A DNA stretch of 64,000 bases from Sphaerolaimus hirsutus (lineage: Eukaryota; Nematoda; Chromadorea; Monhysterida; Sphaerolaimidae): contig OZ038459.1 in assembly GCA_964036195.1 (NCBI GenBank), forward strand, positions 1,113,206 to 1,177,205, given 5' to 3'. Made by a program: the position numbers and the translations under genes. This document shows, in pieces, positions 3,001 to 59,100 of this stretch; position 1 is the stretch's first letter; each line of letters begins with the position of its first letter. The notes under the pieces were generated by a model. It saw nothing but the letters and a program-made list of their open reading frames with translations. It was not told the origin of the DNA and searched no databases.

Positions 3001-6000
3001 TTGAAAGCAGGAGAAATACACCCCACAAAATCTGGTTGGACAATGCACCACAATTCAAACAGTTAGCCAGGAATTTGCCAAACATACAATGGAACTTCAT
3101 CACTCCATTTGCACCATGGCAAGGTGGAGTGTATGAGAGAATTGTGGGCATCATCAAACAACTCATGAAGAAAGCTCAGGCAGCAAATCACAACCCACTG
3201 TTGAGCTGGATGGAACTCAGCACAATGGTACTAGAGGTGGAAAGGGTGTCAAACAGCAGACCACTGACATATGTGGGTGACACAATTGACTCACTCCAAG
3301 TCCTGAGGCCAATGGATTTTCTGCTGGGGGACCACACAGGATCAAATCCTGTGGAAAAAGTTTTGACAGAAAATGAAAGTCATCAAAGCAAGGATCCTGA
3401 TCCAGAATACACACCAGCCAAAAATGAAAAACAGAAAATGACAGAAATTTGGGATGCAATTCAACAGAAAAAGGAGAAATTATGGCAGTTATGGCAGAAG
3501 CTGTATCTGGACATGCTCAGACAGAGATACAACTTTGGGAAGCAAAGCAATAGAGATGTCACAGCAGAACCCAAAGTTGGTGCAGTGGTGCTGATCAAAG
3601 AGCAGAATTTACCAAGAGGTGCATGGAAACTTGGCAAAATTCATAAATTGAACAGAAGCAAAGATGGGTGGATCAGAAGTGCAGAAGTACAACTGAAAAG
3701 TGGAAAACACATTGAGAGACCAATTGTGCATCTATGTCCACTGGAAGTACAAGACCATGATGGACAACTGCCAGAAAAAGTAGACAACACAGTTGAACTT
3801 GGAGATCCACAGAATCCATCAGACCAACCAGCAAAAGCACCAACAACCAAAAATAATGCACCTGACCAGTCACTACAAGCACCAGAAACCAGAAAGAATC
3901 CACACAGGGCAGCCAGGAAACAGCAGACATATGCAGATTTCTTCATGGTGGGATTGCAAGTGCTGACAATCATATCAGTGATCATGTCTGGAGCAGAAGC
4001 AACTACCAATTGGCAGCAAAAATACAACAAGCAGTTCAACCTGTGCACAAAGGCCAAGAATGGGCATGCAATTGCAATACCAGACAAGATATACTGCAAA
4101 TTTCCTGTCACAGACAAAGTCAGGAAACAGGAAGTCAATTTGTGGGCACAAAGATTGGAGCCACAGAAAGCAATAGCATACAGATGCTACATTGATCACC
4201 ACATCATCACAACCAATATGGGATTTTTTGGCAGCAAGGGCATAATTGGAGATATTCATCAGTTTGAAAGAGTGGATACCAATGAATGCTGGAATGCAGT
4301 CAAGACACAAAAATGGAAAAGCCAAGAAATCATGCAGCTGAATGATGATTTATGGTCAACCAATCAAACACTACAGGTGGAATACAAGTGGTGCTGCACT
4401 GACAAAAAGAATGAAGCAATCAATTTTGTCATTGAAAAAGGACAAGTGGCATCACTGGATGGGCACAGATTGGTATCAGACTTACAAGACTTGTCAGCAT
4501 GCTCTCCACTGGCTGGATATTGTCATGATGTCATGCATGCTGTGACAGTGTGGAATGGAACAAAGTTTAAACACCAATGTGCTTATGAATTCCAAGGAAA
4601 ATATGCTGGCAGCATCAGTAGACAGAGTGTCATCATAGAAGAAATTCAGAGTGCATATTCAGTGACACACAGAAATAAATGGCCTGCAGACACAGAATGT
4701 GTACCACAGGATGCATTTTATGTTGATCAGGGTGCAGTGTTCCTGCAATTCAAAACTGAGCTGAAAGAATTCAAAGTATACAAGCCAGAATTTGACAACA
4801 ACACAATCAGTCAGATTTTTGATGCACCAATTGAAGCTGTGGAGTTGGGAAAAATTCAATATACAGCTCAAAAGATTCTTGAAATGGAGAAAAGAGAATT
4901 TGGATTTGTGTGGCAACAGATGTGCACAATGAAGCAAAGTCAATTGGATATGATCAGACAATTTTTCAGATTGAATCCAACAATGGGCATCAGAGCATTG
5001 ATGGGCAGAGAAGATGTTCATGCAGAGTGGGCAGGAGAAGCTGTAATTTTCTGGGAGTGCAAGAAAGTGAAACCAATAGAAGTGCACTTTGCTGGAAAAT
5101 ATGAAGGGACCTGTTACAAGTACACCCCAGTGCAAATTGAACCAGGTGGACAACTGTACTTCATCAGCCCAGGCAGCTCAGACCTCCTGCAACATTCACC
5201 AACAGAGGACTGCAGACATGCCACTCCACACTATTTCCAACTGGATAATGGTGAATGGACAACAGCAAATGGACCAGGACATGTACATGTATCAACATTG
5301 CCAATTGAACTGACATGGAAAGGCAAATGGACAGCCTTCACACTCAATGCATCAAGTATATTCCACATCAGCTTGGCCCACATAAACTTCAACTTATGGG
5401 AAGCAAACTACCACTTCCAAAAGCTTCAGCAGTTGGAACACATGACAAGAAAATTGACAGACTACACAGCCAGTTGGGCACTGGATCCAGCAGTCATCAA
5501 GAATTCAATAGCTGGAGTTGGTAAAGGCATTGGAGGATTTTATGAAGGAGTTGGCAAGGAGATTGGTCACATTGTCAAGGGCACACTGAGTGGCAGCAAT
5601 TCAATATGCAATGGTATTTTGAAGGGACCAGTGCAGTTCATCTTGAATTTGCTACTCATTGGAGGGGCAATATTTCTCACTGGATATGGACTGTATATGT
5701 ATGGGACATACAGAGTCAGCAAAGGACTACCACTACTTCCAATCAAAGCACTTGTATCATGCTTCAGGGCAGTTATCAAGCTACTGGGAAAATGCATCAA
5801 CATGACAACAAAAGTAGCAAAGGCTAAGCCAAAGCAGACAGAAGAACTACAACAAACAACAACTGATCTTGGTTCCCAGAAGGAAATCAACACACTGGGA
5901 CCTACAGCTCAGTACAATGCAACAGAGGGTGAAGTCACACTGGTGCAGGGTGATCAAAGGGCACCTGGACAACCATTGGTGAAGTACCAGCAACACTGTA

Positions 6001-6932: not shown

Positions 6933-7271
6933 GCTCAAAATAACTCGTTCTTAACTCGCAAAACGACTGGGAATATATTTATTTTGAAGCGGACATCGGA
7001 AAACTGAGTTACCTAATTAGAATGAAAAATTAGTTAACAAAATGAACAAGCCAACTTTTTCGATTCGTGCCAGGATAAGCCTTCCAAAAAGTGGTCAATT
7101 TTGAAAAAAATATAATGAAATACAATCTCAGAAAATCTCTCTAGAGGAAATTTGGATTTTATCTCTCATGTCATTTGCAAAATATAATCAAATCTCCAAT
7201 TCTCAAAAAGTTTTCCTACTGGAATTTTCATTTTCTTTGGCATTTCAAGGTGCGTAATTAATACTCAATAT
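6933..7271. other. No gene seen
   Basis: AT-rich sequence between the LTR and the next transposon. I see no ORF, RNA gene or repeat worth naming. Confidence 0.5.
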
Positions 7272-8286
7272 CAGAGTTGTTAAAATACTGGTATTTTTGG
7301 AAAGCGAAAGCGTAAGCGTAAATACACTTTCAAACTTTGAGTATGGATACTGTAAGCATAAGGTGTTTTTAAAATACCTACGAAAGCGTAAAAGAAAGCG
7401 TAAGCGTAAAATTTTTATTTAGAAACGGCTCTTGCTGTTGAGCATCAGAAAACACCTTTGCTTTCACTTTTAGATGATATTATATGGCTTACCAGATGTA
7501 TGAACATTGAGTGATTCGTGATGAGGAAGATGTGGAAGGTGGCAGTCCCAAGCCCTTTAAAGTGTAAAGTCAAATGCAAAGGAAAGTGTCAAATGTAAAG
7601 TCAAATGCAAAGTAAACTGCCAATTGTCATGCAAAGTTCAGTAATAAAATCTTTATTTTTTGTTTTGATTGACACTTTACTTTGCATTTGACTTTATATT
7701 TGACACTTTACTTTACACTTTACAGGGCTTGGGACTGCCCCCTGGAAAAGTTTCCTGGCAGTGCACCTGGCGCCAGCGCCAATCCAAAAGGTGTCATGGT
7801 GCTTTTGGCACTTGGCGCCAATTGTTCTGGCACTAATGGCGATGGCATTCGAAAAAGCGCCATGGTGGAATCGCAAAATGGCTACATAGGATGGAGACTA
7901 AGCAAAGCCACATTTTTATGTCAATTTGAAATTTAGCTAAGGGTATTTTGGGTTGTCCTGCAGTAGCCACTAGTTTTATGAGATTGTTAAAAACTTCATG
8001 CAGACAGTTGCAATGCTCGGAATGAATGGCTGAATGGAATCATTTCACAGCTATTTTTTGTTATGCTATCTCGTTCACTTTCATTTGTAGATTTACACTT
8101 TTTCAAAAGCGTAAAACTGTGCTGTGTGAAAGAAATTTTTTTACGCTTTGAGTACCTGGGTATTTCGGCCAGGAAAGCATAATAAAGTGTACAGGTATTT
8201 TCTGAAAGCGAAAGTGTAAGCATAAGTAAAAATACCCATTTAGCCAGGGTATTTCGGGTAAGCGTAAATACGCTTTCGCAACTCTG
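7272..8286. mobile_element. hAT-like non-autonomous element, AAGCGTAAGCG family
   Basis: The ends are inverted (CAGAGTTG at the left, CAACTCTG at the right). The flanking octamers are CTCAATAT (7264-7271) and CTGAATAC (8287-8294), 6 of 8 identical, which fits an old 8-bp target duplication. Inside, the word AAGCGTAA and its complement recur many times near both ends. A second MITE (7540-7751) is inserted in it. There is no transposase. Confidence 0.6.
7540..7751. mobile_element. MITE of the CAGTCCC family (same family as the introner at 39815)
   Basis: The terminal inverted repeats are GGCAGTCCCA... and ...TGGGACTGCC, followed inwards by (C)CCTGTAAAGTG-like repeats in both orientations around a short AT-rich centre. 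It has no coding capacity. It lies inside the 7272-8286 element. Confidence 0.7.
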
Positions 8287-14309: not shown

Positions 14310-14509
14310 NNNNNNNNNNNNNNNNNNNNNNNNNNNNNNNNNNNNNNNNNNNNNNNNNNNNNNNNNNNNNNNNNNNNNNNNNNNNNNNNNNNNNNNNNNN
14401 NNNNNNNNNNNNNNNNNNNNNNNNNNNNNNNNNNNNNNNNNNNNNNNNNNNNNNNNNNNNNNNNNNNNNNNNNNNNNNNNNNNNNNNNNNNNNNNNNNNN
14501 NNNNNNNNN
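14310..14509. other. Assembly gap (200 N)
   Basis: Exactly 200 ambiguous bases, a conventional scaffold gap of unknown true size. Confidence 0.99.
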
Positions 14510-38151: not shown

Positions 38152-38268
38152 ATTAGTGATGTAAAAAATGCCAAAAGCGCCATGGCGCTTTTCTAATCCA
38201 TAGCGCCAAGCGCCAAAACGCCATGTCGCATTTTGCTCTAGCGCCAGCACCATGGCGGTTTTAGACCC
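38152..38268. mobile_element. hAT-like element, GGCGCC family
   Basis: It starts TTAGTGATGTAAAAAATGCC and is composed of GCGCCATGGCGCTTTT words. The right end is degenerate, and no target duplication is visible. Confidence 0.55.
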
Positions 38269-38506: not shown

Positions 38507-41500
38507 ATGTCACTCTACCGTTCATCATCGTACACGCCTGGGGCCGCGACCATAAGACCTGGCGCTTCTCTGCGACGCTCTTCTAGCAGGTGCGGCAAAA
38601 TAATTGAGATTAGGTATTCAAAATTGTCACTAAAAATTGGAAAATTCGATAATTTAGTGTAAAAAATCGAGAGAGAAAATTTAATTCAAAATTTCGAAAA
38701 CTATTTTTTTGTAAAAATTCAAATTTCGAAAAGTCATTTTCAAAGAAAACACGTGAAAATTTGAACACGTTTTTCCCATGGGCCAATCCAGGACCCTGCA
38801 AAATGTAAAGTATAAAATGTCCTGTAAAATGTCATGACAAATGTAAAATAAGGTGTCAATTCTCATGCAATGTTTAGTAATAAAATTTGTTTGTTTTGCA
38901 TGACATTTTACATGACATTTTATAGGACATTTTACATGACATTTTACCTGACATTTTACATGACATTTTACATGACATTTCACATGACATTTTACATGAC
39001 ATTTTACACTATTTTACACCTTACATGGTCCGATACTGCCCCCAGATGCGTTTACCACCGTCCCCTCAAATTCCATCAAACCACAAAACTGCACACCCCC
39101 CCCCCCTCCAGGCACCGGTCACCGGTACCGGGCGGCACGAGCACGTCGAGCGGCAGCTACGGCGCCACCAGTTACAGTTACGGCGGCAGCGGCGTGCGGC
39201 GGTCAGCGTCCGCGGCGGTGGGCTTCGGCCGCTACGGCGGCACCATACTCACGCCGCCCAGCTGGCAGGTGTACTCGTCCGTGGGTGGGGGGGGGGGGGG
39301 GGGACATTTGTGTTGGGGGTGGCTGTCTGCACGTGTGCTTTTGGCGTAGTGATGGAAAAGCGCCATGGTGCTTCTGGCGGTTTTGGCGCTTGGCGCCAAA
39401 GTCATGGCGCTTTATCCATCACTATCCGGGAGCCCAGCCGCCAGCTATACAGTTTTCTTAATGTAATATTGACCATCATGATGATATTGTTTAAAAATAG
39501 AATATGGTTATTAAAAAAGAGAAAAGTTTCATGCACAAAAACTTTTAAAAAAAATTCCTTTTGTGAAAGTGGTAAAGGTAAGTGTTGCGTTGGCGCATCG
39601 TTCTGATGGTGCTGACAAAAAGTGTCTGCGACGCCATCGGCGGCCCACACACTAGTTGACACACGTGTGTAAACCAGTGTGTGGGCCGCCGTTAAGTAAA
39701 ACAACATCCCCCGCCCCAACCCTAGGCGAGCAGCCGCACATCGCCCACCTACACGGACCGGTTTCCCTACGTTCGTTACAGCGGCACCGGCGCTTCAGTA
39801 ACCTACTCGCCCAGGTGCCAGTCCCAGACACTGTAAAACGCCCTGTAAAATGTAAAATGTCATGCAAAGTCATGGAAAATGCCCTGCAAAACGGCGATTG
39901 ATTTGCAATTTTGCTGGGAAATTTTCCCTGACTTTAGAGATATTGCATGACACTTGACATTTTACATGGCATTTTACAGGGTCTGGGACTGCCCCCAGGC
40001 TCACACCCATCCAGGAGACTGTCAGGGAGTATGGCAGTGGCAGCAGGTTCTATAGCAGCACTTTGGGCAGTGGTCAGTTTGGGTTTGTGTTTGGGGGGGG
40101 GGGGCTGAATGGGATCTTGATAAGTTGCATGGAAAGTGGGAAGTTGAAAGTTAAGTTGTGTTGTAAGTGTAGGTGGTCGGTCAAGTAGTATTTATGAGTA
40201 AAATTGTGAGCGACAAGCAAACGTTTGCCATATAAAAGTTTACTTATGTGACTTACAATTTATATTTTTAGAACTATACTTACCACTTACCCCTTTCCTG
40301 TCGCTTGTGGAGTCAACCCCTGCTGGAATATTCAGCTGCAACTTACAAAGTTGCATTCCGTCCCTGAATGACTCCTCGTTCATGAGAATTTAAAAAGTTG
40401 CGAGTGATTCGAATGTTGACTAGTGATGGAAAAGCGTCAGAAAAAGGGCGCCAAGCGCCAATGGCGTCATGGCGCCCTTTGGCGACCTAAAATGGCGCCA
40501 GCGCCATGGCGCCATTCCATCACTAATGCTGACTAGCAGAATGATAGCCGTAATAAATGATTAGGTAAATGTTTGTACCGTATTTCTTCCAATAGAACGG
40601 CATACTTCCAATAGAACGGCACCTCCAATAGAACGGCAGGTAGAATTACGTTGAGAGTGTGCCAAAACTAAAAAATTTATCGTAAAGTGATGATGAGAAC
40701 ATTCAAAGCATTCAAATGGGTGTTTAAATCTCAAATGAATGCTTTAATGTTAAAATATTGCTCAAGTTCTTGAATAGATAATGCTATTTTGAAATGAGAA
40801 ATCTGTGGAAAAAAAGAACGGCAGCCTCCAATAGAACGGCACCTCTTATATAACGGCAGGTAAAAAAGCTGACGAAAAAAATAGAACGGCGCTCTTCTAT
40901 TAGAAGAAATACGGTACCATAATCTTGAGATATTTTCTGAGATTTTATTCAATTACATTTTCCAAAATTGATTTTTTTCTATGCTAATCCCCACTCAAAG
41001 TGCATCAAATTTCGTACACGCAGGCCGTGCGTACACTTCGTCCGGGCACACGGGCGTGGGCAACTTCTACACGCAGAGGTACCTGGAGGCGGTCAGCTCC
41101 CCGCAGCACAGGGCGCCCAGCCTAGCCATGCCCAGGTGGGTCGCTCAGATTGGACAAATTGGCTATTTTTGGTTGGGATGTTTGGGCCCTGTGATATTAG
41201 GTCACAAGTAATTTGGGTCCCACGTTTTTGGGTCCAGGTAATTTGGTCCCACAGTGATTTGGTTGCACAGTTAATGATGAAACATATTTGCATCAATACC
41301 ACATTTCCATACCTTGCCAGTATTCACATTGAAATGGGCACACCAATGCAGTGATTTCTTCTAAGAACACTTTCTGTGTTTTGATATTACTTTAAAAAGT
41401 GTTTCACTATTTTTGCACAGTTTTTACCCTAAAAACTAATGCTTTCTGTCATATGGCACAAAAATTAGGCTAAAATGTTGATTTTGAGAATTTTTCTAGG

Positions 41501-42435
41501 GTTCCTTCTCTAGGAAATTTTTCTAGGGTTTTGAAAAAGTTCCTAATTGTTCCTCAAATGTCAAAATGTGACATTTGAACAACAGGATAGATAACATTAA
41601 AAAATTGAAGATGGTGTAAAATGTACTTACTGTACTTAACTAAATTTTCAGCACTGTGCACTTTTCAATTTTTACAAGTGGATATCTGAAATGAATGTGT
41701 GATTGTGCTAAATTCTCCACCTAAACACAGTCCAGACCAGTTATGCCTGCTGGGAAACTTTTTTTCCCATTCCAGACATAGGTTTGAGCGAACTGACAAA
41801 GTTCCAAAAATGAAAATATTAGGTTATTCATGGTCCCAAATCCTATAAAATATGAATATGATTCAGAATCAGTGGCTTACAAATTTTCATCCATCAGTTT
41901 TCCATTTCCCATTAAAGAAACCCATACACTAAAAATCCATTTTTCTCAAAGTTTGTTTGGTTGATTGGAATGGAATCAATATTTTAGAATGGGGTGGAAT
42001 CATATGGAACCGGATCGATTGGATAAAAAAGTTGGAAAGATATGTAATTTGGATCATCATGAAATCTGAAGAAAACTTTTTTCAATTTTTTTCATTCCCA
42101 TTTACCATCGTTATCACCCACACAATTGACCCAAAAACACCCATCCAACCCCCAACACTCAATCAACCCCCCAACCCCCCCCCCACCCCCCCAACACTCA
42201 ATCAACCCCCCAACCCCCCCCCCCCCAGACGCGACTGGTCGGTCGATTCATCAGTCAGTCTATTCCGCCACCACAGCATGACTGCAGCAACCCTAAGCAA
42301 ATACGCCCTGACTCCCTCCCACGCGGAAACAAGGCGCAAACACGATCTGTCTGCAAATTATGGAAGCACCCAGGCTTATGGATGCAGGTACACTGCTAGG
42401 TATGGGGCGCCCAGTAGTAGGTATTATCATGGCAG
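38507..42435 (+). CDS. Ser/Tyr/Gly/Arg-rich protein, N-terminal exons (possible intermediate-filament-like head)
   Basis: Six exons join in frame with GT-AG borders: 38507-38589, 39112-39268, 39726-39814, 39999-40072, 41024-41135, 42229-42435. The phases agree at every junction (2, 0, 2, 1, 2), which supports the model. The first exon starts MSLYRSSSYTPG; ATG 38507 could instead follow an acceptor (CACAG). The product is basic and low-complexity: exon 2 has SGSYGATSYSYGGSG, exon 3 TYTDRFPYVRYSG, exon 4 YGSGSRFYSS, exon 6 ends SSRYYHG. Such Ser/Tyr/Arg-rich heads are typical of cytoplasmic intermediate filaments, but also of other structural proteins. Exon GC content is well above the introns. 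The last donor leaves phase 2, which the next visible exon does not accept, so at least one exon is missing, perhaps in the gap at 43801. Intron 3 is an introner-like MITE. Confidence 0.6.
38795..39052. mobile_element. MITE of the CAGTCCC / TGACATTTTACA family in intron 1
   Basis: Repeated AAAATGTCATG words and their complements end at TGGTCCGATACTGCCCCCAG, the family terminus. The opposite end is CCAGGACCCTGCAAAATG. Confidence 0.65.
39347..39424. mobile_element. hAT-like element, GGCGCC family, short copy in intron 2
   Basis: 78 bp with termini TAGTGATGGAAAAGCGCC and TTTATCCATCACTA. The flanking octamers do not match. Confidence 0.7.
39815..39998 (+). mobile_element. Introner-like element: a MITE that is exactly one intron
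   Basis: The 184-bp intron between exons 3 and 4 starts GTGCCAGTCCCAGACACTG and ends GGGTCTGGGACTGCCCCCAG. These are the two terminal inverted repeats of the CAGTCCC family. The donor GT is in the left terminus and the acceptor AG at the right border. Splicing restores an AG|G arginine codon in the Ser/Tyr-rich frame. Confidence 0.8.
40421..40525. mobile_element. hAT-like element, GGCGCC family, 105 bp, in intron 4
   Basis: The ends are TAGTGATGG and CCATCACTA. The flanking octamers ATGTTGAC (40413-40420) and ATGCTGAC (40526-40533) match at 7 of 8. The interior is almost wholly GGCGCCA words in both orientations. Confidence 0.82.
40578..40914. mobile_element. TA-duplicating MITE, CCGTATTTC / AATAGAACGGC subfamily, in intron 4
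   Basis: The ends are CCGTATTTCTTCCAATAG and CTATTAGAAGAAATACGG, flanked by TA (40576-40577, 40915-40916). AATAGAACGGCA is repeated three times at the left and in degenerate form at the right. Confidence 0.82.
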
Positions 42436-42504: not shown

Positions 42505-42668
42505 TAGACTTTGGAAAATGTCCTGGAAAATGTCAAGTGTCAGGCAAAATGCCCTAGGTTATGTGAAACAAAGTTTGCCAGTTTACAGGAAAATTTTGCT
42601 TTACTTTTGACACTGCGTGACATTTGACATTTTGCAGGGCATTTTACAGGTTCAGGGCCCAGGCCCCA
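42505..42668. mobile_element. Degenerate CAGTCCC-family MITE
   Basis: GAAAATGTCCTGGAAAATGT words face TGACATTTTGCAGGGCATTT around a short centre. The terminal repeats are eroded (TTCAGGGCCCAGGCCCC). Confidence 0.5.
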
Positions 42669-43800: not shown

Positions 43801-44000
43801 NNNNNNNNNNNNNNNNNNNNNNNNNNNNNNNNNNNNNNNNNNNNNNNNNNNNNNNNNNNNNNNNNNNNNNNNNNNNNNNNNNNNNNNNNNNNNNNNNNNN
43901 NNNNNNNNNNNNNNNNNNNNNNNNNNNNNNNNNNNNNNNNNNNNNNNNNNNNNNNNNNNNNNNNNNNNNNNNNNNNNNNNNNNNNNNNNNNNNNNNNNNN
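43801..44000. other. Assembly gap (200 N)
   Basis: 200 ambiguous bases, inside the presumed gene spanning 38.5-47.5 kb. Confidence 0.99.
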
Positions 44001-50116: not shown

Positions 50117-53100
50117 ATGAAACATCTTTGTGCTGTCCTACTGTTGGTAGTTTACTCAATATCCGTCAATGGACATTATCCATCAGAATTGACTGAAACC
50201 AATCCACTAAAACCCCCAGAGGAGTTACTCAAGACTAGGATACCCCAGACATTGTATCCAAATTATTATGTTATTTGGTTTGTCTTTCTGTTTTATAACA
50301 ACTGCAGAAAATATACATTTACAGTGTTATAATAACACAATGCCAGGTTGAAGCCCTATTTTCCATCGAATGTTACGTATCCAAAAGACCGAGAATTCAC
50401 GTTCGACGGCAAGGTGAGACATTTTGGTTTATGGTGGAGTATCAAGTGAAATTGTGTTTTGGGGTGGGGCAGTCTAAGTTGACAATTTGTGTATACCTAA
50501 TTTGCAAACTTAATTTTGTTTTTAGGATTACGTATTTTCATAATTCACGTAACTTCCATCTCCCTATTGGTTGTCGGCCATTGGGTTCAGTTTTTTACTA
50601 AAACATAGATTTTGGTGCTAGCGCCAAAGCAAAATGGCACCAAGAGCGCCATGACACTGCTTTGGCGCCAGCACCATATTCTAAATTTTGAGTATGTACG
50701 CAACTAAACTTATCAACTAGTGTGCGTGCTGCCATAAATTCAGGTGGTACCTAGACAGCCTTACGTGGCGAGAATTCAGACTTTTCAAGTTTTTTATCAC
50801 TGGAGTTTACTTGCCCCTTGACTTGTCACTTATTATTCAACTTAAGTACCACTTGCAATTTGTCACCTGTTCACTTAAGGAATGCGTGCCAGTTACGTGA
50901 TGATCCACTGAATAGTTATTGAATCGACCATTTCAATTTCTTCGTGTCGCCAGGGTTGTCCATCAGACAGTTTCAATTTTTCTCTTAAAAAATTATGGGA
51001 GCAATTTTTCACGGCTAAATTTTGTTGTTGAAAAGTTCCTTATTTCGCGCCAAAAAGTATCACATTTGCTCACTTGAAAGTCACTTTGCCCTACTTTTCA
51101 TCTTCCCATCCAAACAGATCACCATCAATGTGACCGTTGCATCGCCCACGCGCAACATCACGCTGAATGCAAAAAATTTGACATTTGACAATGCCGCCGC
51201 CGCTGTGTGTGCTCAGGATGGAAGGCAGCTAACAGTTACTAAGGTAGTTTTTCATGGACCATTTTGAGCGGATACAGTTAAGGTGCTGGTGCAAATCGTA
51301 ATTCTGGGAAATGCCTTCGTTCGTGGTGACTTCGTGGCGATGTAAAAAGCGCCAGAACTTTGGCGCCAAACGCCAAAAGCGACATGGCGCTTTTCCGCCC
51401 CTAGCGCCAAGCTCTAATGGCGCCAGAGCGCCATGGCGCTTTTTGCTTTAGCGCGACCGCCAGCGCCAGCCATTTTGTTCCTGGCGCCACAGCAAAATAG
51501 CGACAAAAGCGCCATGGCGCTTTTTGCTTTGGCGCTAGCGCCAGCGCCATGGCGCCTTTACATCACTACTCCACGCTTTGCAACGAAAATAACATGTGAT
51601 GTCCCGTCTGAATAAAAAACCCAAACTTAATTCTCACACTTCATATCACATTATCATCACCAGGGAGCAGTCCCGCACCCTGTAAATTGTAAAGTCAATT
51701 GTCATGTAAAATGTCAATCAAAATAAAATACAAAATATTTTTTTTACTTTTGGCACTGCATGACAATTGAGAGATTTGTATGACATTTTACATTATACAA
51801 TTTTTCACACTTGACTTTATTACAGGGTGTGGGACTGTTACCAGGATGAACTTGATCAATTCTTTATCACGTGACTTTTTCATCAAGATATGGTAGTACT
51901 AAATATATATCCTCGATTAAGTCCCCCCTCTCGAATAACACCCCCCTGTTAGCTGACTGAGGAAAAAATAACTCCCCCTCGAATAACTCCCCCACTTTAC
52001 GGGTGACAAAAACGTCCATGTATGAAAGACGTTTCTATGTATGTTTTATTTAAAAGCAAAGTATTTTTTGCAGCTAATGTTCACTAGCATTGATTTCATT
52101 GCATGAATTGTGGAATTTCAACCCTTTTCAAACAATGTATTGATCATGTATGTTACTCAAGATTCTGATGAAAATAGAACACCCTACCCCTCTAATAACT
52201 CCCCCCTCTGGAATAAGCCCTCCCTTAAAAAGTTCTGATGAAAAATAACTCCCCGGGGGACTTATTTGAGGATATACGGTATTCTTTTTAAAGATAGCTA
52301 TAGCTATGACATGGCCAATCAGCGCGCAGCAAATCATTACGAGGTCATTGGGTGGCCTGTCGCATTTGCACATGTAAATCAATTTGCATGGGCCCTCAGT
52401 AGGGTTGGGAATTTCAAAATTTTCGGTTCCGGTTCTCGGTTCTCGGTTCTAAAAAATTTCGGTTCGGTTCTCGGTTCCTCAAAATTTTCGGTTCCGGTTC
52501 TCGGTTCGGTTCTTAAGTTCGGTTCCGGTTCGGTTCTTTCGGTTCCAAATTGTCAAAAATTTCGGTTCCGGGTAATGAAAAAGTCGGGTATCGGGTAATG
52601 AAAAAATCGGGAATAAGAAAATAATATGCGGAACAAAGGAAAAACAACATAAAACAACCTCCCCCTACAATTTTGCCCCTGTAGTGGCGGAATGGTGTCA
52701 TGGCGCTCGGGCCATTCATAGGCACCACGCCATGGCGCAATTGGCGCCAGACAGCCAAAACTTGGTGTGCATGTAAACCCAGTGTGCATGTAGACCCCTT
52801 GCTTCGGGGGCCAGGTACATATCCAGGATTTATGAGAATGGTGTATGTTTGTTTACTGAGCCTGCTGTATGGGAGGGGGATTCAGCCACCCGCCCTAGAG
52901 GTTTACCTACATGGTGACGAAATGGCATCATGGCGCTGGCGCCATTGGCATTGGTGCCAAAAATCTCTGATATGTATGTTTATACATGTACATATAGAGA
53001 GACTGGCACCCCACTTGCTGTATTTTTTGAGAGAATTACCAGTACGCTTACCAATGTACTTCTAAAATATCAGTGTGATGGAAAAATGTGGGAAAATGGG

Positions 53101-56100
53101 CCTACATGCGCACCAGGTTTACATGCGCACTGGCACAGACCCCCACAGACTGCTGTATATGGATTCGACATACATATACACATTTTAGGTGGGATCGTGA
53201 ACACATGAGGCTGCGCGACCGGTGAGATGAAATCACCGGTCACGTGAAGCAAGAACTGCGCGCTTGCGCGCAAAATTTTTGGACAAATGACCCTAAAAAT
53301 TGATGCCGGAAGTTACATTTCCATGCATATCCCTACTCTCACCCAGGAAGGGGGGAGGCGGCCGATTATTTTATAAAATTTCGGTTCTTTCGGTTCTTTA
53401 GTTCGGTTCCGGGTCTAAGTGCCGGTTCTCGGTTCCGGTTCGGGTATTTTTTTCGGTTCCGGTTCTCGGTTCTCGGTTCCAAAATTGTGCTCGGTTCTCG
53501 GTTCGGTTCGGTTCGGTTCGGTTCCCCAACCCTAGCCCTCAGTGTACCGATTTGCATAACACTCATGTCACAAACAAATGTGCAGCTAGCTGTGGATGCT
53601 GATAAAAGTCAAGTGATTGTGCATTTGGATGAAAACCTCCAGTTAGGTTCAACATACAATGTGTCCCTGGCGTGGGCGGGTAATATAAATGACTTCAAGA
53701 CAGCTAGCTTTTTCAAGACCGCTTATGTGCTACCAAATGAAGAGAAGAAGCAGTGAGTTGAGTGTCAGGTTCTCAATCTAATGGTTTGGTGTATTTTTAA
53801 CGACACTTTGCTGGTGCTCATTACTGTAAACCAATTAAAACCCACTACTCATCTATAAGATGTTGATTTGCATGTGTAAATTGACATACACAAAAATTTA
53901 CACATGCAAATAAAAATCTTCAATTCACACAAACACAAATATGAATGCTAGTCAAAAATTCTGCACTAATGTTTGTAAATATTCTTGTATTCATGTGCAA
54001 ATCGAAATCTTCATGTTTTTACATGAGTAACAGGTCTACTGAGTAACGAGTTTACATGAGTAACAGGTCTACATGAGTAACGAGTTTTCATGGGTAATAG
54101 GCGTCAGGCTTTTCAACTTATGTTTATATAGGTAAGCTGACTGGCAATCTGGTGGTTGAGATGACTGAAAAGTGGTTAACTGGGGGCACTCCCAGACCCA
54201 GTGAAGTGTGAAAGACCCTGTAAAATGTCAGGTGTCATGTAAAAGCCCCTGAAAAGTCTCATGTGTCATGCAAAGTGTAGAGGACTCTGTAAAGTGTCAA
54301 ATGTCATGTAAAGGACCCTGTCAAGTGTCATGCGTATTCAAATCTTATAGGATTGCATCCAAATATTATCTTTTTGTATCCAAATCTGAAAAAATAATAT
54401 AATAAGATTAGGATACAAAAGATACAATATAATAAGATTTAGATCCACATGACACTTTACAGGGTCTTTTACACGACATTTGACACTTTACGCGGTATTT
54501 TACGTGACACATGGCACTCACCAGGTCTTTTACATGACACATGATACTTTACAGGGTCTTCTACATAACACATGACATTTTACAAGGTCTGGAAGTGGCA
54601 CCTGGTCTAATTAACGTGTTTTTTTAGCTGAATGCCAAGGGGGATAATTTTTTGGCGGCGTAAAATGGGAGAGGGGTTTAATTGAAGGTTGAAGTATATT
54701 TTCATTATGATCTTTCCATAAAGCTGGATGGTTGCATCGCACTTTGAGGAGGGTGGCATGCTGCGATCTACAATGCCATCGTTTGATGAGCCAATGTACA
54801 AGTCGTTTTATCACCTGACTCTGCAACACCCCACTGGCATGAAGGCACTTGGAAATGGCATGGAATTGGCAACCAAAGATTTAGGGTTGGTCTTTGTTGA
54901 TTTATTGTGTGTGAAATTCAGTTTCAGTTTTCAGATGTTTTATATCTTTTATATTATGTTTTCAGTTGTGGCTTCACAAATATTGTGCGACATTTTTTCC
55001 GGTGGAAAAAGCACAATTTTAAAATAGTGCTTACATGAAAGTATAACAATAATTTCCGTAAGCAACTTGTCATAGATTGTCACAAATGGCCGGAAAGAAT
55101 TGAGCGCGCACAAAATTTCATAAACATCCATTTTTTTTTATTTGTCTTTGTGCTAATAATTTGATGTAAAACACGATACAACCACTCAGCACTGGCTGGA
55201 GCGAGACTTCATTCGCTCCATTGAAATCTCCGATGAGCTCCTATCTATTGGCGTTTGCCATTGGTGACTTTGTTGGTGTCCAGCGGGAGAACAAACATGG
55301 TGTTCTGGTCGGTTTCTCACCCAATCTTACTGTAACTCGTGTTTTGCGGTTACCGTTCCAAAATCATGGGAGATTTCTATAAAGATAAGAAAATACTTAT
55401 TTAAAAAACTTGTATTTATTTCTATTTTCTGATTTTTCCCGAGAGATTTTTTATATTTTTGTTTGATGAAAATAAAAACTTTCATTTATATTATTTATAT
55501 GTATTTATATGTTCTCTGCGTTTTTTTGTAAATTTTTTTAAATATTTTATTTTTTTACATATTTTCTGAGATTATATAAATTATATTTTCCGAAAAACAC
55601 CGATTTTACAATGGCAGTTGCGGTTAACATTCTTGCGATACCTAAGTATTGCTGGAATTTCTTCTAAATAAATGACGACCTCCCCATGGCGGTAAACTCA
55701 AATTTGTTGAAAATGGTTTATCAGGTTTCGAAATTCTAGTAACTAGTGTGCGTGGATCCAAAGTGACGCGAGGTTCAATATTTCAAAGGTAGGTACCCTT
55801 GTTGTTGCATACAGGTGCGCGTGTGGGCCTGGCCCGGTATGGAGCCTTACTTGGACTTGCCACTTGATGTGGGCTGCAAGGCACTTGACTGGTTTTCAGA
55901 CTATTTTGGCATTGATTTTCCGCTGGAGAAAGAAGGTTATATGGAGGGTTACAGCCTATAGTTATGGTATATTCTCGAATAATTCCCCCAGCGGATTTTT
56001 TTAATTAGGCAATGGGGTTATTTGAAGTGAGCAACGAATAATATACAGTATAATAATAAATATTGATTGGAGCTGTTCAGATGGAGTGAAGCATCAACCC

Positions 56101-59100
56101 GTCACAGGGTACATCCTTACTAGATTTCTACGTGTGTACATAGTGTTCAAAGGGGTATTTCGAAGAAGTGGGAGGGAGGGGGGGGGGTAAATACGAAAGG
56201 GGTCAATTTGAGAGTATACTGTAACATTTACCCCCCCCCCCCCACACAGACCTGCTGGGCCTGCCCGAGTTCCGTCCTGGTGCGATGGAGAACTGGGGGC
56301 TGGTGATATTCAGACACGCGCAGATGGCCTACAACGTGCACATGGACACGAGCGAGCACATGGCGCAGAGCGTCGTCGAGACCATCGTGCACGAGCTCGC
56401 GCATCAGGTGCTTTTTGGTGATGGTTTTTGGTTCTGGGGTGGGAACGGCCTGGTGTGGTGCCAATTCCGCGAGATTTGACGTGAAGAGTGAAGTGAAGTG
56501 AAAAGTGATGTGAAGTGATAAGTGAAGTGATATAGTTTTTGAATAGGGTAACATTTTCAATTCCAAGTTCCGACGCAAGCGAAAAATGAACACGTTTCTC
56601 ACTAAATCATCATAACCGTGATCGGAAACAATGCTTTTTAAGTCTGAATTCATCCTTTACGTTTCTTATTATTTTTTTTCATATCACTTCGCGTTTCAGT
56701 TCATGTTTTGCGGAATTGGCCCCTGGTCGGGAGGGGTTTGAGGGTGCAGTGGCGCCTTAGATTGATATTCACAGAGATGTGCTTATATTCTACCTATGCC
56801 ACAATTTTATGACACAGAAAAATTTTCCTGGAAATACCCCCCGGGGGTGATTGTTTCATAGTGCTCCCGAGGGGGGGGGGTATTTCGAGGGGGGGGTATT
56901 TCGAGGGGGGGGTATTATTTCCCAAGAAATTTTTTGAAATCCTAGTACAAAATCGTTGTTTGTGATGTGCGCTGGGGTAGAAAAATGCATCAATAACTGA
57001 CATGTATAGACTCCTGTAGACTAATATTAGTACGTAGATGATATAAACATTGTTCTAACGTGATTCCGACATTGTTTTAACGTGTGTTCTGCACTACGCA
57101 GAACACATACTGCAGTATTTGTCATGTACGTTCTCTTTACACTCAATCTGGGGAGGGGGTATTTCGAGGGGGGTGATTGTTTCATAGTGGTCTCGAAAGG
57201 GGGGGGGGGTCAAACGAGGGGGGGTATTTTGAGGAAATACGGTATGTGTCTAGCGATCTCTCTCCCTTTTTCCTTCTAAAGCTTGAAAAACACCATATAT
57301 TGAACCCCTACGACCCCCCCTCCAAAAACGAGAACTATACACATGATTAGTCATGGAATTGCGCCATTTGAGGTCACCAAAGTATTTTCGCCCCATCATG
57401 GCGCCCTTCTACTACTTTTGCTACTTGTGCACCGGGTTTACTTGTGCACCGACGCACCCCCGTTTCAAGCCCTGTAAAGTGTAAAGTAAAGTGTCAAATG
57501 TCATGTAAAATGTCAATAAAAACAAAAAAAGACGATATTTATTACTGGACTTTGCATGAATGATAACAATTGCATGACAATTGACAAGTTTGTATGACAT
57601 TTGTCATGACACCTGGCACTTCACCCTGTACACTTTACAGGCCTTTAAACTGGCATCTGGTGATTGTTTTCAGTTTTATCCATCGAAAATGATTGAAAAT
57701 CGCAGTGGTTCGGCGATTTGGTCACCGCGCGCTGGTGGAACGATCTGTTTCTGCACGAATCTTTTGCAACTTACTGGGAGACCGTCGCATCATTTGGCAT
57801 CTTTCCAGATCAGGGAAACATGCTGGTTGGAATAGGGTTTTGAATTTTTTATTGATAGGTATACCTTCCTGAATGCACACTTTAAAGCAAAATCTACCGT
57901 ATACCACTAGAATAACGAATATTTCCTTTATTATACTGCTTTTACTATCGGCGAGTTTGGTGCACTAATTATAACTTGCCTTTGGTAACGAAATCTTTAC
58001 TGTGATTCTCTAAAATTCTTTAACTGTAAAGCATGCAGTCTGATCAATATAGGTAAATTTTGTCACAGTTCAAGTGTGAAAATACTTGTCAAATTAAAGT
58101 TTTTATCGGATGTTTTACGCTGATCTGATCGGACGCTGTACAAAGACTTCATAATTACCGTATTTCCTCGAAATACCCCCCCCTCGAAATACCCCCCCTC
58201 AAAATGAACACTATGAACTTATAAACCCCCCCCCTCGAAATACCCGCCCCCCCAAATTTAGTGTATAGTGTTGCATTTTCAACGTCTGCGTACGTTTCAG
58301 ACGACAATTTAGTACTTGGTTTTCAAAAAAATTCTGGCGAAATAATAACCCCCCCCCTCGAAATACCCCCTTCGTTTAACCCCCCTCAAAATTCTCACAC
58401 TGAAAAAATTAACCCCCCGGGGGTATTTCGAGGAAATACGGTAAATGATGTGACTATTGAGTAATAGCAGTGCGAGGTGATCGGAAAATCTATTTTTCTA
58501 AATTCGAATAGGATATGGTAGATTTTAGTTCAAAGTGTACACTCAGTAGTGATGGTAAAGGCACCGGTAAAATTGCACCGGCACCGAACTAGCACCGGTG
58601 CTGGTGCCCTTCGGTGCCTGGCAGCCTTTCCATCATTAGCAGCCAGTGAACTTTACCACTATTTTCACTAAACAAGGTGTAGAATCATCTGTGGTTTTCT
58701 CTAAAATTCAAACTTAAAAGGTCACTTAACTTTCGCAGGATGTTTCATCCCCACTGACTTACTTGGAGAAAGGTTTAAAATTCGATGGAGAAAGGCGTTT
58801 ATCCCATCCAGTTATTGATCCCCTGGGCCCGTACTTTGATGCAATTACATATAAAAAGGTTTTTGAAGTGTTTTATGCACTTTTATTAAGTCACTTCACT
58901 CCGATCGTTTTCTATCCGTGCTTCTAAATTGTTACAGGGTGGTTCATTACTGCGCATGATAAATCATACATTGTCTGAGCCATTGTTCCGGGAGTCCCTC
59001 CGCGTGAGTATTTTTATTGAGTAATTGATTTATTATCTGTTATGCGCCTGTACAAGCTTTGTGCAAATAGCAAATTGTGTGCTTAAGCAAATCGAAACAG

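Follow-up and report, generated by a model that had tools for sequence, protein, structure and literature searches.

A dispersed palindromic DNA transposon as a probable source of GT-AG introns and, possibly, of GT-TG introns

Introners are a leading current explanation for the origin of introns in batches, and introners, or introner-like elements, are reportedly the subject of a 2016 study by Huff et al. A 2022 survey of 3,325 genomes found introners in only two animal groups and mentions copepods. It describes introners with the features of DNA transposons, some of which bring one splice site with them and obtain the second from the target-site duplication; the introner of Chrysochromulina, for example, carries the 5′ site and co-opts the 3′ site (PMC9860276). 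Transposons of the NuwaI group, which belongs to the PHIS (PIF/Harbinger-like) transposons, occur in animals (PMC4482050). Departures from the GT/AG rule have been described in two settings that bear on our case. Introns of the larvacean Fritillaria borealis are mainly AG/AC and AG/AT, with RNA evidence (PMC13326754), and TG serves as an alternative 3′ splice site in U2-type introns, as verified in 36 human genes (PMC2374985).

The element at positions 39815 to 39998 of the window (the whole stretch of 64,000 nucleotides that was analysed) is in all likelihood an introner, that is, a non-autonomous palindromic DNA transposon that inserted into a CCAGG-like coding site and would be spliced out of the transcript. 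Like the introners of the survey, it is short, non-autonomous and flanked by a target-site duplication, has the inverted ends of a DNA transposon and would leave the mRNA unchanged on removal; it differs from them in its 3-bp CWG duplication, its near-complete palindrome, a donor on one end only and a CAG/CTG target ambiguity that leads to two acceptor classes (PMC9860276). The family might be among those tabulated in that survey. An introner of this kind would belong to a class already known; what appears to be new here is the possible wide use of a TG acceptor, and no CWG-duplicating introner family with GT-TG introns was found in the largely open-access literature on introners and TG acceptors. 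The element and the exons modelled around it are as follows.

39815 to 39998, plus strand: predicted complete intron, made up of the MITE and the 3′ target-site duplication, 184 bp, GT...AG, on the evidence of frame, phase and family
39815 to 39995, plus strand: MITE copy, 181 bp, K2P 0.12 against the 189-bp consensus, GT end toward the 5′ side of the gene
39812 to 39814, plus strand: 5′ target-site duplication CAG, on the exon side of the donor
39996 to 39998, plus strand: 3′ target-site duplication CAG, source of the acceptor AG
38507 to 38589, plus strand: host gene exon 1, modelled, ending in phase 2, start codon assumed
39112 to 39268, plus strand: host gene exon 2, modelled
39726 to 39814, plus strand: host gene exon 3, modelled, ending ...CCC AG/ ahead of the element
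39999 to 40072, plus strand: host gene exon 4, modelled, starting /G CTC ACA...
41024 to 41135, plus strand: host gene exon 5, modelled
42229 to 42435, plus strand: host gene exon 6, the last one modelled

The sequence-only reading had described a 184-bp intron bounded exactly by inverted termini, with both splice sites inside the terminal repeats. The length, the GT and AG borders and the inverted repeats (GTGCCAGTCCCAGAC and GTCTGGGACTGCCCC) stand, as does the position of the donor, which is the GT end of the element. The element itself, however, ends at 39995, and the acceptor AG is contributed by the target-site duplication; the borders read CAG/GTGCCAGTCCCAGAC at the start and GTCTGGGACTGCCCC-CAG/G at the end. 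Removal had also been said to join AG to G with the neighbouring phases in agreement, and this was borne out: phases are consistent across all six definable exons, through which a single open frame runs once the element is taken out. Ser, Tyr, Gly and Arg are abundant in the encoded protein. A protein search with the head of the host gene returned no homologue, and candidate downstream coiled-coil exons gave nothing above cut-off in Pfam. Because the host gene has no detected homologue, splicing at 39815 to 39998 rests on the open frame, the phases and the behaviour of the family, by which the element is very probably a complete intron. Its retention in the mRNA, either translated or as an exonised sequence with a premature stop, seems very improbable, as the host frame would then run AGG TGC CAG TCC CAG ACA CTG TAA, with the stop 21 nt past the junction codon, and retention would cut a conserved domain in 11 other copies. 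Two assembly gaps, each a run of exactly 200 N, lie at 14310 to 14509 and 43801 to 44000; the latter falls in the host-gene region and may conceal an exon.

The element had been called a dispersed MITE, and the rest of the genome confirms it. In the 348-Mb assembly of 762 contigs, the family scan gave 2568 first-look candidates, and the 40 that were scored (the window copy and 39 other places, 81 to 86% identical) all match nearly end to end, these counts being lower bounds. All 39 other scored places were fetched, and there and in the window we located 61 copies with both ends, 52 of which could be oriented and nine of which could not; one fetched place (L033) yielded no two-ended copy by the pattern used, and near-identical duplicate loci (L009/L010, L011/L014 and L022/L039) were counted separately. 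An alignment of 47 oriented copies, 170 to 200 bp long, gave a consensus of 189 bp that is a palindrome save for its tips (GTGCC versus GGGGC) and its centre, so that a single strand folds into one long hairpin. One end reads GGGGCAG in the consensus (the GG end) and the opposite end starts with GTG (the GT end). The family is thus short, with terminal inverted repeats, many copies and a target-site duplication, as expected of a MITE. The GT end keeps its GT in all 52 oriented copies, a partly circular figure in that the end was recognised by its likeness to GTGCCA.

The target is CCWGG-like, with the CWG duplicated (3 bp). Identical triplets flank 31 of the 52 oriented copies, as CAG/CAG in 17 and CTG/CTG in 14, and a C stands directly before the duplication in 30 of the 52 and a G directly after it in 31. 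Fourteen copies on contig C1 have both ends as exact 27-mers, each with one GT and one GG end; their triplets match in 13 (6 CAG/CAG and 7 CTG/CTG, beside 1 CTG/CAG), and none of these 14 has two GT or two GG ends. Genome-wide, exact 27-mers of the GT end occur 481 times after CAG and 368 times after CTG, and those of the GG end 587 times with CAG and 368 times with CTG as the 3′ triplet, against 0 occurrences of the reversed controls for all four; the window copy itself differs from the 27-mer of CAG and GT end. The genome-wide excess of CAG over CTG is not relied upon, because the two are balanced at the GT end on C1 (45 versus 44) and the GG-end matches are clustered. One such cluster on C1, at about 22.17 to 22.82 Mb, is made up of GG-end 27-mers that lack an exact partner at the GT end and is perhaps a segmental amplification. 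Among the fetched loci no empty site was found. At L021, the flanks of the copies at 2813 and 4809 match at 98% identity when one is taken in reverse order, as would be expected had a local inverted duplication copied the element with its surroundings.

The CWG duplication is a feature shared with NuwaI, whose terminal repeats usually begin with GGG, as only the GG end does here; NuwaI elements are not described there as introns, and here no transposase with the family's ends was found (PMC4482050). Because NuwaI ends usually start with GGG, the GG end appears to be the older state and the GT end a change from it (PMC4482050), and an introner family of NuwaI-like origin is the probable interpretation. 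In a NuwaI-like MITE, the second base of one end would have become a T (GG to GT), and amplification from a master with one GT end would thereby have given half of the genic insertions a donor in the direction of the gene. Insertion into a CCAGG target with the GT end leading would produce ...CAG/GTGCC...GCCCCAG/..., a GT-AG intron that could be taken out with no change to the coding sequence. In a CCTGG target the same element would produce CTG/GT...CTG/, a GT...TG intron that is apparently tolerated, and with the GG end leading there would be no donor, an arrangement observed in a single conserved gene. Once transcribed, the element would fold back and bring its two splice sites together, which may aid recognition of weak ones. 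The target, its duplication, the asymmetry of the ends, the restoration of coding sequence and the excess of one orientation can be read from the copies themselves; transposition by a PHIS transposase, and the splicing itself, are steps that we infer.

A search for an autonomous partner with GGGGCAGTCCC ends found none; one locus with a PF13359 transposase gene (L051) was read and has no CAGTCCC terminus. The genome holds 163 PF13359 matches on many contigs, and many of the copies are equal in length with four TGA codons, probably representing a young Harbinger-type family. The idea that these Harbinger-type transposase genes themselves carry the introner, raised by a 192-bp in-frame excess and the TGA codons, was rejected after L051, in which the TGA codons fall in two apparent ordinary short introns and fragments of the family occur only about 1.7 kb downstream.

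Several further copies lie in the window.

7539 to 7741, no strand assigned: copy in which both ends are present; the pattern used gives AAG and CTG as flanking triplets
38786 to 39046, no strand assigned: degenerate copy in host-gene intron 1 as modelled, ends set by eye
42506 to 42657, no strand assigned: family fragments past exon 6, matched stretches 42506 to 42550 and 42574 to 42657
51664 to 51841, minus strand: old copy, K2P 0.32, CAG/CAG on the plus strand, probably within an aminopeptidase-gene intron
54183 to 54601, minus strand: longer copy, CTG/CTG, in an aminopeptidase-gene intron, by eye
57464 to 57660, no strand assigned: degenerate copy in an aminopeptidase-gene intron, limits approximate and set by eye

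A terminus held to be common to copies in the window, CAGTCCC, is indeed present in those at 7539 and 51664, but the copy at 54183 to 54601 has CACTCCC instead, and the 38.8-kb and 57.5-kb copies are degenerate. The copies at 51664, 54183 and 57464 appear to fall within longer introns of a gene for an M1 aminopeptidase (window 50 to 62 kb; exons by our own reading), for which two joined central exons give a Peptidase_M1 match of 80.5 bits, and none of these three, nor those at 7539 and 38.8 kb, could be recognised as a whole intron. The 51664 copy was considered as a second whole intron and rejected, as it sits between aminopeptidase exons at about 51.1 to 51.2 kb, which has no Pfam match, and 53.6 to 53.75 kb, which matches Peptidase_M1_N at 17.3 bits (cut-off 25.8). 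It too yields an open join by eye, though it probably lies within a native intron, and an open join is for that reason weak evidence on its own.

That other window copies seem to lie in larger introns indicates that intronic insertion is common for the family, and the MITE at 39815 could likewise have landed in a pre-existing intron, with borders that coincide by chance or with the element filling a short intron. Insertion into an existing intron should leave remnants of the old one, yet in the homology-supported joins described below the exons adjoin the CWG duplication directly on either side, with no sequence left over, a pattern repeated across unrelated genes. We accordingly regard a pre-existing intron as improbable and return to the element as an intron in its own right, for which genes with known relatives are the informative cases.

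For each copy, the element and one CWG were removed and the joined open frames were searched against Pfam. The direction that places GT at the 5′ side gave a list of 69 peptides; 29 peptides chosen by eye were scanned, 26 of them from this list of 69, and for the L010 ASC copy the join was moved by one base. After removal, 14 copies exceeded the curated Pfam cut-off, all with the GT end on the 5′ side of the gene: ASC (L009_7111 and L010_1848), cadherin (L013_6875), 7tm_1 (L015), CAP (L019), Mito_carr (L022), Kir (L026), calpain (L028_2492 and L028_4818), SDF (L037), DUF2452 (L040), Frizzled (L044), zf-CHCC (L045) and FMO (L047). These may represent some twelve genes, given that both calpain copies belong to one gene and that the two ASC copies may do so as well. 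The domain match spans the join in 11 of the 14; in cadherin and calpain L028_2492 the domains lie on either side of it, and in 7tm_1 the join falls just past the match. Only about three matched residues precede the join in zf-CHCC, which is NDUFS6-like, and the joined piece of L022 (SLC25) has no Pfam match alone, the match needing an upstream exon whose joint was chosen by eye. Peptidase_M23 (L049), MFS_1 (L041) and PDE (L011) remained below the Pfam cut-off. At L010, copies at 1848 to 2035 and about 7075 to 7261 border separate portions of an ASC-type sodium channel, and the two may be introns of the same gene.

Alignment to solved structures is gap-free at the join in six cases: Kir2.2 (E 3.7e-26), FMO (E 1.1e-23), calpain-2 (E 8e-16, for the CTG-type copy), the mitochondrial GTP/GDP carrier (E 6.8e-11), EAAT3 (E 4.7e-9) and PDE1B (E 2.6e-9), the last of which confirms the PDE match of L011. 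PDB searches with short calpain and SLC25 pieces gave nothing useful, and longer pieces aligned. Calpain L028_2492, a GT-AG case, has a 2-residue alignment gap next to the join, where the sequence is variable. By homology, dispersed similar sequences thus appear to be complete introns in unrelated genes, and their removal restores the coding sequence that preceded insertion, as the six gap-free alignments indicate. Copies of an introner family should fall on intron boundaries in other genes too, and the 11 domain-spanning joins and these six alignments agree with this, so that the introner reading is supported and, on homology, extends from the window copy to its family.

The copies also differ by orientation. 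When the antisense joins were scanned, all 47 listed peptides gave no match above the Pfam cut-off, the one low-complexity match (E 0.006) being below it. A single antisense copy, L016_539, joins an SLC22-like transporter (SLC22A12, E 0.0047) and would be a GG...AG intron. One SLC22-like gene at L016 may hold two copies, at 539 to 726 and 4868 to 5048, the second with CGG as its 3′ triplet; for this second copy the SLC22 N-terminal piece reaches only E 2, and both would be non-canonical. Of the 16 homology-supported copies, 15 (the 14 with Pfam matches and PDE1) lie with the GT end on the 5′ side of the gene and one lies the other way; a one-sided binomial test that treats copies as independent gives about 3e-4. 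This excess bears on the idea that the elements are excised from somatic DNA by programmed elimination and not from RNA, which would yield an identical coding sequence from elements whose ends are transposon ends. An excess of GT at the 5′ side of genes fits splicing and not the DNA excision of a near-palindrome, and the window case has the form of an ordinary GT-AG intron; somatic excision accordingly strikes us as the faintest of prospects, and splicing remains our reading of the orientation data.

The 3′ ends of the homology-supported copies fall into two classes. AG is found in nine (both ASC copies, cadherin, 7tm_1, CAP, calpain L028_2492, DUF2452, Frizzled and zf-CHCC), of which the CAP and L010 ASC copies have CTG as the 5′ triplet, so that their triplets differ. 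CTG is found in six (PDE1, SLC25, Kir, calpain L028_4818, SDF (EAAT) and FMO), and a length-neutral join in these six requires a GT...TG intron or an equally unusual shifted pair of sites. The calpain gene holds one copy of each type, at L028 2492 to 2686 (CAG-type) and 4818 to 5006 (CTG-type). Since the CCWGG insertion site is palindromic and the donor lies on one end only, a single transposon family could have seeded both GT-AG and GT-TG introns across genes, a proposition toward which the balance tips slightly. Genes for U1 RNA are present, 25 of 26 matches lying above the cut-off.

CTG-target copies might instead be spliced at a nearby AG with a change of a few residues, or the genes might be dead. 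In-frame, stop-free GT-AG alternatives do exist near all seven of the CTG-type or related joins examined, within limits of at most 45 nt from the donor and 60 nt upstream or 45 nt downstream of the acceptor; PDE1 and calpain, for example, have an AG 9 nt upstream that would add three residues. The nearest alternatives, however, alter the length of the protein in every case (by +3 residues in PDE1, -7 in Kir, +3 in calpain, +10 in EAAT, -3 in FMO, +21 in SLC25 and +3 in SLC22), whereas the TG join is gap-free against solved relatives in six supported genes. The base variant that creates an upstream AG is not enriched in CTG copies, being present in 6 of 17 of them against 9 of 24 CAG copies, and the joined frames are open despite a divergence of 4 to 8% between the copies and the consensus. 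We consider nearby AG sites or dead genes a possible but rather unlikely account, and genuine GT-TG splicing of the CTG-target copies, judged from these comparisons, is somewhat favoured. If true, the spliceosome of this host would need GT yet routinely take TG at the 3′ end, perhaps by way of hairpin-paired ends, and much of the genome's set of young introns would be lost or wrongly placed by conventional annotation, which insists on AG.

Such introns would resemble those of Fritillaria borealis in breaking the GT/AG rule on a large scale and in repeating a triplet at the intron edges, which is YAY there and CWG here, but in the present family the donor GT is kept and the acceptor alone varies, and the rule is broken more widely in F. 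borealis (PMC13326754). Compared with the human TG sites, which are alternative ones, TG would here be the only length-preserving acceptor found (PMC2374985). The family amounts to a natural experiment in which the orientation of the insertion and the A or T of the target vary independently, and the genome itself can reveal which splice signal is indispensable, apparently the 5′ GT, with the 3′ AG maybe dispensable. Closely similar GT-AG and GT-TG introns could be compared within one transcript in the calpain gene, and the family may illustrate the way in which this genome gains introns in batches.

The mitochondrial contig (C762) is 14,754 bp long with 17% GC and has nad1 and nad2 on the strand opposite COX1. 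A tunicate host had been suggested by the genome size, the large contigs and the Fritillaria literature. Tunicate mitochondria read AGA as glycine; AGA occurs at serine positions in the COX1 of this contig (by eye), and the host is not a tunicate. Among the best 120 COX1 matches, the closest two are 90% and 80% identical, and those that carry an organism name, mostly beetles and other arthropods, are 66 to 70% identical, with a priapulid at 67%. The host lineage is probably poorly sampled, the named COX1 relatives among the listed matches being just 66 to 70% identical. Two other repeats are present in the window: one, dispersed and with TACCGTATTTCCTCGAAATACCCCCC-like termini, is common at 24.9 to 34.8 kb and 56.8 to 61.9 kb, and the other, short and made of GGCGCCAGCGCCATGGCGC-like units, occurs at 38170, 39392, 40441, 51372 and 62898.
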